IMG/VR virus record: IMGVR_UViG_3300032334_000945
Location: 1-28,787 of that record
Strand: one strand, 5' to 3'
Length of the DNA stretch: 28,787 bases
From: a virus
Each line of letters opens with the position of its first letter. The stretch's first letter is position 1. Below are positions 1 through 2,418 of this stretch, in pieces. The translations under genes were made by a program, and so were the position numbers. The notes beneath the pieces are model-generated. The model worked only from the letters and a program-made list of their open reading frames with translations. It made no database searches and was not told where the DNA came from.

Positions 1-1638
1 AATGATGATGTTGTCCGCCTTGTTGTTCCACATCGCCCCATCGGCAAGATCAAATACCTCTGGGCATGGGTAGTTTCCGTCGTCTCCCTTTCTCATCTTG
101 TGCGGGTGGACTACGATGTCAAAGTAAACGTTGTTCTTTCGGGCAAACCGTGTGCAGTCAGACAGGAATGTTTCAAGGTACTTGTCGCTGCGCCCACCGC
201 CCTTGGTATAGTCGTTCGCCATCTGGTTGAATGGGTCGATAATCACACGATCCACCCCATGTTTGATAATCATGCTGAGGAAAACCTCTTTCACGTAATC
301 GGGAGTTGGGCTTACGTTCTTGGGGTACACCATAAAAATATGTTCACCAATCATCTTGTACACTTTCATGTACGCATCATAACTCGGTCTGTTGTAATTG
401 CTTGGCGTACAGTCTTTTCCGAAATAAATTTCCACCAAGTCGTGGTAGAATTGTTCCGCTGGTAATTCTTCAGGGGTGAAGATGGCCACCTTCTCTCCAA
501 ACTTGACCATGCGGAATATCATCTCCCACTTCATAAATGATGACTTACCATAGTTTCCTATTCCGGAAACAATTGTTAATTCGCCTTTAACTCTTTTGAA
601 GTGCTTGTCGAGTAACGGAACGCCAAGTGGCATAGCGGCCTGATATCCCTTCAAGTAAATCTCGGACGCCTGTTCCATTACTTCCTCAGCGTATATTACA
701 TCCTCTTTGCTTATCTCTTCGAGGTCCTGCTCGGTGAGTTCAATCTTAACCTCGGTGTGGTTACTCTTTGTAACCAGTTGGTCTTTGGTAAACTCAGCCG
801 TATTCCACTGATTCATGTTGGCGCGGTACGCACTGCGGATGGCTTGACGGCACTCCTTCTGACTAAAACTGGAATCAGGAGTGACGTGCATCATCATTAG
901 GTTGTAACACGTCTCCTCAAGCATCCCAAACCTACAGCAGCTTGCGGCCAACTTAAACACGAAGTGGTTCCTTTCCCCCTCGCGGAATGCGTCTCCCTTG
1001 GATGTCATCCACGTCAATAGGTTTTGGAATATCTTGTCGTCATCGCTAATGGTCTCGGTAGTTGTCTGTTGGGGCAATCTCCTGTCGGCTTTCTTTACGG
1101 GCAATTTCTTGTAGGTTTCCGCGTTCGGATTGTAGTAAAGTTCGGGATCATACGACTCAAAGCATAGGCGAGAAACATTTCGACCCGTCTTGTCGATGTC
1201 GAGCATCTCGCTCATTAAGGAATCGAAGTGTTCCTTATGCATGGTTTTCCACTCAATTTGGACGAGCGCTTTTAAGCCCTTTCCTGAAGGCGAAACCCAA
1301 ACTGCGGTAATATACTCAACAGAACACAATTCGCTTCGTTTTTGGTCCATATCCGCAACATTATCAAAGTCCAAAACGATATATCCGGAGTGTTCAAGCA
1401 GTTCAGAGTCCTTTCTTTTGGAAAAAGTGCCACTAAAACATACAGCGGGTAGTTTCTTTTTTAACTCATCCGCCTCTTTCTTGGTTTTGGCTTCCCTCGC
1501 CTTCTCAACAAGTGTCTTTGATTTTCCAGCCCTAATTCGTTCAAGTGCGCCCAGTACACTAATTGTGTACCCTTGCAGGTCGTTGAAATCTTTGTAGATG
1601 GATACCTTACCATTTATTCCTTGGGTCATTTGGGTCAT
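1..1638 (-). CDS. Primase-helicase (BT4734-like primase domain + SF4/DnaB-type helicase), 3' end cut by window
   Basis: Minus-strand frame open from the ATG at 1638 to the window edge (546 codons; C-terminus missing). Residues about 80-170 look like the BT4734/BF3469-type N-terminal domain of Bacteroidota primases: VLDFDN (88-93), SPSGKGLK (116-123) and DKTGRNVSRLCFESYDP (149-165). Residues about 335-546 are a RecA-fold helicase with a P-loop SGIGNYGKS (358-366), a Walker B-like strand VIIDPFNQM (465-473), VVHPHK (509-514) and a DnaB/Twinkle-like H3 segment DGAMWNNKADN (533-543). The arginine-bearing H4 motif would lie beyond the edge. It would prime and unwind phage DNA at the fork. The ATG lies 32 nt inside the upstream initiator gene, so the two are probably translationally coupled; a second ATG three codons on (1629) is an alternative start. 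Third positions are more GC-rich than in much of the right arm. The fusion is confident; the start is less so. Confidence 0.85.
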   Translation of the reverse strand, partial: MTQMTQGINGKVSIYKDFNDLQGYTISVLGALERIRAGKSKTLVEKAREAKTKKEADELKKKLPAVCFSGTFSKRKDSELLEHSGYIVLDFDNVADMDQKRSELCSVEYITAVWVSPSGKGLKALVQIEWKTMHKEHFDSLMSEMLDIDKTGRNVSRLCFESYDPELYYNPNAETYKKLPVKKADRRLPQQTTTETISDDDKIFQNLLTWMTSKGDAFREGERNHFVFKLAASCCRFGMLEETCYNLMMMHVTPDSSFSQKECRQAIRSAYRANMNQWNTAEFTKDQLVTKSNHTEVKIELTEQDLEEISKEDVIYAEEVMEQASEIYLKGYQAAMPLGVPLLDKHFKRVKGELTIVSGIGNYGKSSFMKWEMIFRMVKFGEKVAIFTPEELPAEQFYHDLVEIYFGKDCTPSNYNRPSYDAYMKVYKMIGEHIFMVYPKNVSPTPDYVKEVFLSMIIKHGVDRVIIDPFNQMANDYTKGGGRSDKYLETFLSDCTRFARKNNVYFDIVVHPHKMRKGDDGNYPCPEVFDLADGAMWNNKADNIII

Positions 1639-2266
1639 AGTTGTAATTAGTTTGTTTTGTATTTGTATTCGTATTCGTTGTTTCGTCTTCCCACCTCCTA
1701 TCGCGAAGATAGCGTATCGGGTCCTTCCAGTATTTGCGCTCGCGGCCATTCTTGTGGTTTCCCATGCCTTCTACTGCAAGTATCCGGTCCTCAGAGGATA
1801 GTTTGTTCCATACAGCAAGGGTTTGTTTTTTGTCCACCTTCTTGTCATATGCAAGCCAAAAATCCTCAAAGGTGTATTTATATGTTATTTCTTTCTTTGT
1901 ATTGTCTATATATGTAGTGGCGGGTTTTCGGATATCGGGTTTTCCGCTTTCCGTTAAACCGCTTTCGGTTGGCTCGTAGTAGACGATATAATTAAACCCT
2001 CTTGACAAGCCATCGTTACCAACAATTCTAACAGAGTGTATGTATCCAAGCAATTCTAATTCATCCCAAGCGCTAGAGATCGAATCCTTTCCATCTAAGA
2101 AATAATCAGTCAACTTACTTTTGTATATGACCCAATCATGCGGGAGGGAAAGTAAAAAAGAGAGCAACCCTTTTGCCTTTAGGCTAACCGATTTGTCTCT
2201 CAGAAATTCAGTAGGAACCATTGCGAATGGCACGTTCCTGGTTTTAACAATTTGTCCTGTATTCAT
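1607..2266 (-). CDS. Winged-helix replication initiator / helicase-loader-like protein
   Basis: 219 aa from the ATG at 2266. The frame is open further upstream, but the extension would be encoded by the terminator hairpin, so 2266 is preferred. Residues about 10-95 resemble the helix-turn-helix domain of phage replisome organisers (VSLKAKGLLSFLLSLPHDW, then a recognition-helix region and a beta-wing). A polar linker follows (about 100-130). The C-terminal part (YTFEDFWLAYDKKVDKKQTL, then W, DPIRYL and RRW elements) resembles the tail domain of phage DnaD/O-like initiators that bind or load helicase. The tail is Thr/Asn-rich and coded by a hexanucleotide repeat. Position directly before the primase-helicase fits an origin-binding or helicase-loading role. 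There is no Shine-Dalgarno; the ATG lies about 6 nt after a T-tract. The family is recognised by pattern only, and the DNA target is unknown. Confidence 0.7.
   Translation of the reverse strand: MNTGQIVKTRNVPFAMVPTEFLRDKSVSLKAKGLLSFLLSLPHDWVIYKSKLTDYFLDGKDSISSAWDELELLGYIHSVRIVGNDGLSRGFNYIVYYEPTESGLTESGKPDIRKPATTYIDNTKKEITYKYTFEDFWLAYDKKVDKKQTLAVWNKLSSEDRILAVEGMGNHKNGRERKYWKDPIRYLRDRRWEDETTNTNTNTKQTNYNYDPNDPRNKW
1655..1678 (-). repeat. Hexanucleotide repeat, ACRAAT x about 4
   Basis: On the minus strand the sequence is ACGAAT, ACGAAT, ACAAAT, ACAAAA. It encodes the alternating Thr-Asn tail of the initiator and ends 17 nt before the primase-helicase ATG. Unit gain or loss would stay in frame for the initiator but would change the distance to the coupled start. 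Confidence 0.7.
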
Positions 2267-2271
2267 AAAAT

Positions 2272-2307
2272 AAAAAAAAGCTCGCAAGAACCACTTTGCG
2301 AGCTTTT
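2272..2307 (-). terminator. Intrinsic terminator (hairpin A) immediately before the replication operon
   Basis: Arms at 2276-2287 and 2296-2307 pair perfectly over 12 bp (core GCTCGCAA / TTGCGAGC) around an 8-nt loop, GAACCACT on the plus strand. Read on the minus strand, the stem runs into eight consecutive T (2279-2272), the classic form of an intrinsic terminator for leftward transcripts. It ends only about 6 nt before the ATG at 2266. It would therefore stop leftward transcripts before the initiator and primase genes unless it is bypassed. On the plus strand only four T follow, so action is expected mainly leftward. Confidence 0.8.
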
Positions 2308-2340
2308 GGATTGGTAAGAGCAAATCATTTACCTTCCAAC

Positions 2341-2372
2341 CCTCGTTTACTGTGGTTCGATAGCAAACGAGG
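2341..2372 (-). repeat. Inverted repeat, hairpin B of the leader
   Basis: CCTCGTTT (2341-2348) pairs perfectly with AAACGAGG (2365-2372). Two more pairs (CT/AG, 2350-2351 with 2362-2363) can form past one mismatch, leaving a 10-nt loop that includes GTGGTTC. There is no T-tract on either strand, so it is not itself a terminator. Confidence 0.75.
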
Positions 2373-2374
2373 AG

Positions 2375-2386
2375 TGAAATATTTCA
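2375..2386. promoter_or_regulatory. Perfect 12-bp palindrome, candidate operator
   Basis: TGAAATATTTCA is its own reverse complement. It starts one base beyond the -7 box of the leftward promoter (2388-2395), so it covers the expected transcription start. A dimeric repressor bound here would block initiation. No regulator is identified in the window; the winged-helix initiator just downstream is one autoregulation candidate. Confidence 0.5.
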
Positions 2387-2387
2387 G

Positions 2388-2418
2388 CAAACATAAAACA
2401 AACACGCGAGGTTGTCAA
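2388..2418 (-). promoter_or_regulatory. Bacteroidota-type promoter of the replication operon leader
   Basis: On the minus strand TTG (2418-2416, within CTTGACA) is followed by a 20-nt spacer and TATGTTTG (2395-2388), matching the known Bacteroidota consensus TTG-N19-21-TAnnTTTG. The TTG overlaps the stop codon of the small gene at 2415. The expected start is about 2382-2385, giving a leader of about 115 nt before the ATG at 2266. Confidence 0.65.

Follow-up and report, generated by a model that had tools for sequence, protein, structure and literature searches.

The CI RNA of P4 and the c4 RNAs of P1 and P7 are phage leader RNAs whose pairing controls their own downstream genes, and in P4 this control operates by termination within the replication operon. 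The pT181 and pIP501 attenuators have a terminator in the leader of the replication initiator, employ loop–loop contacts and occur as orthogonal specificity types. In the IncB/IncIalpha repZ leader pseudoknot, a hairpin loop pairs with an element just upstream of the replication gene, and the pairing activates translation. In the cobalamin riboswitch, the L5–L13 kissing loop links an upstream domain with the expression platform, and the pRNA of phi29 is a phage RNA with complementary loops. IsrK of prophage Gifsy-1 derives from a single promoter that yields a small RNA by termination and an mRNA by read-through (PMC4825925), and GOLLD and ROOL RNAs are described as RNA-only homo-oligomers (PMC12286853).

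The window analysed here is a 28,787-nt stretch of viral DNA (IMG/VR record IMGVR_UViG_3300032334_000945). The leader of its replication operon carries two hairpins with complementary loops, the second of which is an intrinsic terminator. No similar element was described in the open-access papers that were searched, in agreement with the sequence-only reading, which knew of no such phage element; the kissing-loop RNA is apparently undescribed.

Anatomy of the leader and its downstream genes

The features of the leader and of the operon are as follows.

2388–2418, minus strand: Bacteroidota-type promoter (−33/−7 type), with TTGAC at 2418–2414 and the −7 box TATGTTTG at 2395–2388
2334–2379, minus strand: 5′ hairpin at the 5′ end of the RNA, core stem 2372–2362/2351–2341, lower extension to 2379/2334
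2352–2358, minus strand: kissing sequence 1, GAACCAC, borne by the 5′ hairpin loop, pairing with 2288–2294 in 41 of 41 leaders
2310–2340, minus strand: middle hairpin or linker, whose length and sequence vary; other families have an A-rich single strand here
2272–2307, minus strand: intrinsic terminator with a covarying 12-bp stem (2307–2296/2287–2276), an 8-nt loop and U8
2288–2294, minus strand: kissing sequence 2, GTGGTTC, borne by the loop of the terminator, pairing with 2352–2358
1607–2266, minus strand: replication initiation protein (MNTGQIVK...), encoded by the operon's first gene (PHROG 270, E = 3.2e-19)
1–1638, minus strand: primase/helicase (BT4734-like_N and PriCT_1), truncated by the end of the window

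The Bacteroidota promoter consensus comes with a spacing rule, by which transcription starts 5 nt past the G of the −7 box (PMC6847099); applied to TATGTTTG, it gives a predicted RNA start at 2383. The G at −9 in this box deviates from the refined TAHHTTTG consensus. The core of the 5′ hairpin (2372–2341) has 11 bp, is extendable to 2379–2334 and carries the loop AUCGAACCAC. At 2272–2307, a G+C-rich hairpin with the loop AGUGGUUC (2295–2288) is followed directly by the U tract (2279–2272), as expected of an intrinsic terminator, and a gap of 5 nt separates its end from the ATG at 2266. The terminator lies between the promoter and the first gene of the replication operon, which is the position of an attenuator. 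The predicted fold of the leader has an energy of −40.6 kcal/mol (z = −4.9), and 0 of 200 shuffled sequences folded equally low. The minus-strand sequence and this z-score bear out the anatomy first proposed for the leader, namely a promoter, hairpins and a 12-bp/U8 terminator near the ATG. The perfect 7-nt complementarity of the loops also stands; the letters originally given were those of the plus strand, and on the RNA the 5′ hairpin loop bears GAACCAC and the terminator loop GUGGUUC.

Residues 1–8 of the replication protein, MNTGQI[VI]K (window 2243–2266, minus strand), are near-invariant in homologues and the remainder is far more variable, although the profile search was seeded with this stretch and the sample is therefore biased toward it. 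Either the nucleic acid or the start region is possibly under constraint here. In L043–L053, the same leader precedes replication genes with an unrelated N-terminus (MHNQYSIIPAS...); therefore, the leader and the first domain of the gene are exchanged independently. On the plus strand of the window, a small gene at 2659–2904 (ATG at 2683, MANLRPPDGRVFVRIDKIHGK...) resembles, by eye, a phage GroES-type co-chaperonin, and searches with Pfam and PHROG gave no match for it. A TATATTTG box is located just upstream of this gene.

Covariation and loop alleles in family I

The homologue sample consisted of 79 viral loci from a replication-protein scan and 80 from a family-profile scan, many of them common to both. 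The leader type of the window, designated family I, comprises about 42 distinct sequences, and the kissing-helix alignment contains 41 leaders. The 7-bp kissing helix is Watson–Crick paired in 287 of 287 cells, and three of its seven pairs have changed on both sides without G–U intermediates. Only three types of loop pair are present: GAACCAC/GTGGTTC, GAGCAAC/GTTGCTC and GAGTCAC/GTGACTC. When the partner was shifted by one column, the pairing fell to 36–43%. For the 5′ hairpin, 94% of the cells are paired, against 100% for the kissing helix, and 7 of 17 pairs have changes on both sides; the terminator stem covaries too. Covariance among homologous leaders had been named beforehand as the check on the element, and it revealed strong compensatory changes in the 5′ hairpin, the terminator and the kissing helix. 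Complementarity of at least 6 nt between two hairpin loops, together with compensatory evolution, characterizes the contact as a kissing loop.

In every family I leader, the U tract begins 8–14 nt upstream of the replication-gene ATG. Conservation along the leader is lowest in the middle hairpin, and its earlier inclusion as a component of the plan did not hold: the segment is variable, and other families have an A-rich single strand in its place. Both the base of the middle hairpin and the lower extension of the 5′ hairpin compete for GGUUGGA. Since the extended 5′ hairpin is dominant in most relatives and the middle hairpin is favoured in only a subset, which includes the window, there is no conserved switch, and a conserved riboswitch-like alternative fold was rejected.

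On the tree of the neighbouring helicase, the family I loop types underwent 13 changes, compared with a mean of 12.9 for shuffled labels. L044 and L045 differ in both loops and in the terminator stems, and L011 and L053 differ in both loops, with the promoter and the middle part nearly unchanged within each pair. Either very fast recombination and compensation or selection for a different loop type would account for this allele switching. The oddest aspect of the element is that closely related leaders switch freely between orthogonal loop alleles. Extended loop words gave no clear allele-following extra copies elsewhere in the genomes, and a trans target bearing the loop word at another genomic site was rejected on this ground.

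Other leader families, second units and cultured phages

The leaders of relatives with more distant N-termini show no recognisable similarity, yet they retain the same order of elements: a TAnnTTTG-type box (at the matching place in most of these families), a 5′ hairpin, a linker that is often an A-rich single strand, a terminator and the ATG. The loops are GGGAAAC, GTGGAAC and GGGGAAC in family II; GTCGCAG, GTAGCAG, GTAGAGG and GTCGAGG in family III; GTGGCTT, ATGCAG and GTGTCAG in family IV; GTGCAG and GTACAG in family V; GTAGTATG and GTAGTGTG in family VI; and GTGGAGT in family VII, each with a complementary partner, and in these families, too, the partners vary in step. All 20 distinct loop pairs are complementary to their own partner over 6–8 nt and to swapped partners over at most 5 nt, and their kissing helices span a narrow range of energies, most of them close to −9 kcal/mol. 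The kissing helix is 100% paired in the alignments of families III and II, with three and two doubly changed pairs, respectively. The pair counts of the family IV alignment, in which L142 and L123 are misplaced, understate the pairing read by eye. In family V (L061, L122 and L080), a GAGUA/GAAA internal loop below the kissing loop of the terminator hairpin resembles, by eye, the loop E (bulged-G) motif.

Terminator-like sites with a partner of at least 7 nt were found at 33 of 49 positions before a replication gene and at 12 of 689 positions elsewhere in the loci. Eight of these 12 are leaders of the same kind before replication genes with a variant N-terminus or of other organisms; the remainder comprise the reverse strand of one leader and three A+T-rich matches. 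A loose promoter-anchored scan had a background of about 25 matches per million shuffled bases, and therefore only its strong matches were used. Gut phages in which the replication gene is internal to an operon had no such leader. Replication-protein homologues in bacterial genomes are distant, and most lack the leader; the exception is a Cytophagaceae contig with a 7-nt pair (CCCTTAC/GTAAGGG) in a weaker context.

Many of the same 65–70 kb phages carry a second RNA of the same plan, with a promoter (TACATTTG or TACTTTTG), a 5′ hairpin, a middle hairpin and a terminator (GCCCTCGG...CGAGGGC and a T tract). Its kissing pairs are TCTGGCTGG/CCAGCCAGA, TCTGGTAG/CTACCAGA, TCTGGTAC/GTACCAGA, CTGGCACC/GGTGCCAG, TTGGAGAG/CTCTCCAA and, with one G–U, TTTGGCGG/CCGCCAGA. 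Phages of ~35 kb have another second unit, with the pairs GATGCAA/TTGCATC, ATTACGG/CCGTAAT and TTCGCAGT/ACTGCGAA. The sites are as follows.

L244 near 5226, minus strand: second kissing RNA
L248 15007–15118: second kissing RNA
L256 near 17112: second kissing RNA
L234 7819–7932, minus strand: second kissing RNA
L270 near 12819: second unit of ~35-kb phages
L272 near 18993, minus strand: second unit of ~35-kb phages
L266 near 3529, minus strand: second unit of ~35-kb phages

A possible start codon immediately follows the second unit in L234, L281, L284 and L286. In other phages, the sequence after the second unit is conserved but holds no evident gene, and the neighbours are on the opposite strand. 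In the group of L244, L248, L256 and L234, the stretch after the unit (CCGAATCAGCCCTGTCGGTGC...) is often conserved without an evident gene, and the flanks of the unit in the ~35-kb phages (L270, L272 and L266) are similar to one another (AGTCAATCCGA...TTCGGG). Because second units occur at other loci, the device is not tied to one gene.

Cultured phages carry the element as well. The pair before the replication gene is GTGGAGG/CCTCCAC in Flavobacterium phage elemoF, TGAGAGC/GCTCTCA in elemoA, GTGAGACG/CGTCTCAC in lillamy9-5 and hattifnatt9-1, also Flavobacterium phages, and GTGGTGG/CCACCAC in Olleya phage Harreka_1. Tenacibaculum phage JQ has a 10-nt pair (AGCATCCTAC/GTAGGATGCT) before its replication gene, and in Flavobacterium phage 11b the pair spans 8 nt (CGGGCAGG/CCTGCCCG) and precedes a cluster of unnamed genes. 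The scanned first half of Cellulophaga phi38:1 gave nothing convincing. Homologues that keep the gene and lose the pairing had been put forward as evidence against the element; none was found among relatives with a promoter and terminator leader of their own, except possibly Maribacter phage Panino, in which a terminator is present at the site of the replication-gene leader and a kissing partner was not found.

Proposed mechanism, alternatives and known systems

The 5′ hairpin loop and the terminator loop stay complementary over 6–10 nt across phages. Judged by sequence comparison, a loop–loop pairing that has been kept while its letters changed many times is a real control element, recurrent in many Bacteroidota-infecting phages, and the support for the kissing interaction between the 5′ hairpin and the terminator is as good as such comparison allows. 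We lean towards the reading that the leader is a transcription attenuator of the replication operon acting through the kissing helix; its position and the conserved terminator argue for attenuation of this operon, in which the kissing helix would help to decide the outcome. RNA polymerase would make the 5′ hairpin first, and its loop would catch the loop of the emerging terminator hairpin to form a compact clamp, which may affect the timely folding and the stability of the terminator stem. Expression of the initiator and the primase/helicase would then be set by the share of polymerases that read through. In solved kissing complexes, an unpaired residue is located on the 5′ side of the loop. 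The paired letters here sit in a loop that the full terminator stem can close, with the unpaired residue mostly on its 5′ side, so kissing and a finished terminator should be compatible; this compatibility favours a clamp that supports termination, the sign being a guess. Read-through would require an opener of the clamp, for which we can only guess at a phage or host factor, the ribosome or a competing RNA. Of the kissing-loop attenuator proposed in the sequence-only reading, the kissing pairing is upheld by compensatory loop changes and the attenuator role is plausible from the sequence, although the same plan is also found away from downstream genes. A pure attenuator does not account for the second units, which often have no directly downstream gene; the lack of a conserved switch between two exclusive structures and the Panino terminator without a kissing partner also count against the attenuator reading.

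These second units, several of them without an immediate downstream gene, would fit better if the product were a small RNA of ~110 nt made by termination, whose kissing end hairpins yield a stable, compact molecule acting in trans on host or phage targets or on proteins, with the replication gene living on read-through. The conservation of the kissing helix exceeds that of the 5′ stem, and IsrK offers a precedent for an RNA that is both a small RNA and a leader (PMC4825925). We nevertheless regard this explanation as fairly unlikely, because the location of the U tract 8–14 nt before the replication-gene ATG throughout family I, and the recurrence of this position in unrelated leaders, indicate a conserved link with the gene. 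Trans control of copy number or superinfection appears distinctly unlikely. Terminated leader RNAs would pair with new leaders of the same type, and only phages with the same allele would repress each other, as in plasmid incompatibility RNAs. The orthogonality of the loop alleles, their lack of linkage to the helicase tree and the close leaders that differ in their loops and little elsewhere (in L044/L045 also in the terminator stem) are in line with this. Against it, the cis partner is always at a high local concentration, extended loop words have no clear allele-following further copies, and no antisense promoter was found: TAHHTTTG is present on the opposite strand in 1 of 42 leaders, and an antisense-RNA attenuator of the pT181 type, which has convergent promoters, was rejected. 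The tyrosine integrase family PF00589, the only integrase family searched, is absent from the 29 phage contigs, many of which are fragments, and present in 14 of 14 control genomes; therefore, lysogenic immunity is unlikely, and a P4-type immunity RNA was rejected.

Kissing loops couple domains in cobalamin and lysine riboswitches, and a riboswitch-like leader, in which a ligand or protein binds the form with the 5′ hairpin docked on the terminator, could also make use of the contact; the loop E-like internal loop of family V points in the same direction. Such a leader is improbable, as the families share only the pairing and no sequence core, and a riboswitch with a conserved aptamer core was rejected. 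No Rfam match at gathering score was obtained, nor any match in 140 kb of relatives, and known families including c4 RNA and amino-acid leaders were rejected (best hit, Trp_leader, 22.9 bits against a gathering score of 41). Chance or an inverted-repeat artefact has hardly any probability left: the earlier figure of about 0.1% for a 7-nt loop match is reasonable as an estimate for one window, and the compensatory changes in many families make chance untenable.

A bolder proposal would take the RNAs as a new class of phage regulatory RNA, with a 5′ hairpin and a terminator locked by a kissing helix, in which the loop letters serve as interchangeable orthogonal specificity types in replication leaders and in one second unit per genome. 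The types would be read out in trans between co-infecting phages or by RNA self-assembly, and the loop type would define a phage incompatibility group. We consider this proposal unlikely.

The element adds a widespread, apparently undescribed RNA to the phages of Bacteroidota, and little is known of how the phages of this phylum control their genes. The element is a clean test case for the control of termination by kissing to a terminator loop, and the cultured carriers (elemo, lillamy, hattifnatt, Harreka_1, JQ and 11b) make it directly testable. If the attenuation mechanism holds, the orthogonal loop pairs, which are almost equally strong, would be natural attenuator parts.

Among known systems, P4 CI and the c4 RNAs (RF01695) of P1 and P7 are alike in being phage leader RNAs with pairing and their own downstream genes; they come from temperate elements, are processed and pair in trans with transcript sites, whereas here the 5′ loop pairs with the terminator loop, and neither an Rfam match nor a tyrosine integrase was found. 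The cobalamin riboswitch also couples an upstream domain to expression by a kissing loop, whereas the present families have no aptamer core and no shared sequence. IsrK shares the terminated small RNA and the read-through mRNA and differs in its trans action on translation; its abstract mentions no kissing between a 5′ hairpin and a terminator (PMC4825925). The phi29 pRNA, GOLLD and ROOL have a different fold, and the present RNA stands in a leader, has a pair that can close within one molecule and is much smaller than GOLLD and ROOL. The pT181 and pIP501 systems resemble it in the leader terminator of a replication initiator gene, the loop–loop contacts and the orthogonal types; here no countertranscript promoter was found and both partners lie within one RNA. 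The IncB/IncIalpha repZ leader likewise has a hairpin loop that pairs with a second element close upstream of the replication gene; its pseudoknot partner is not a terminator loop, whereas here the partner is the loop of the intrinsic terminator itself.
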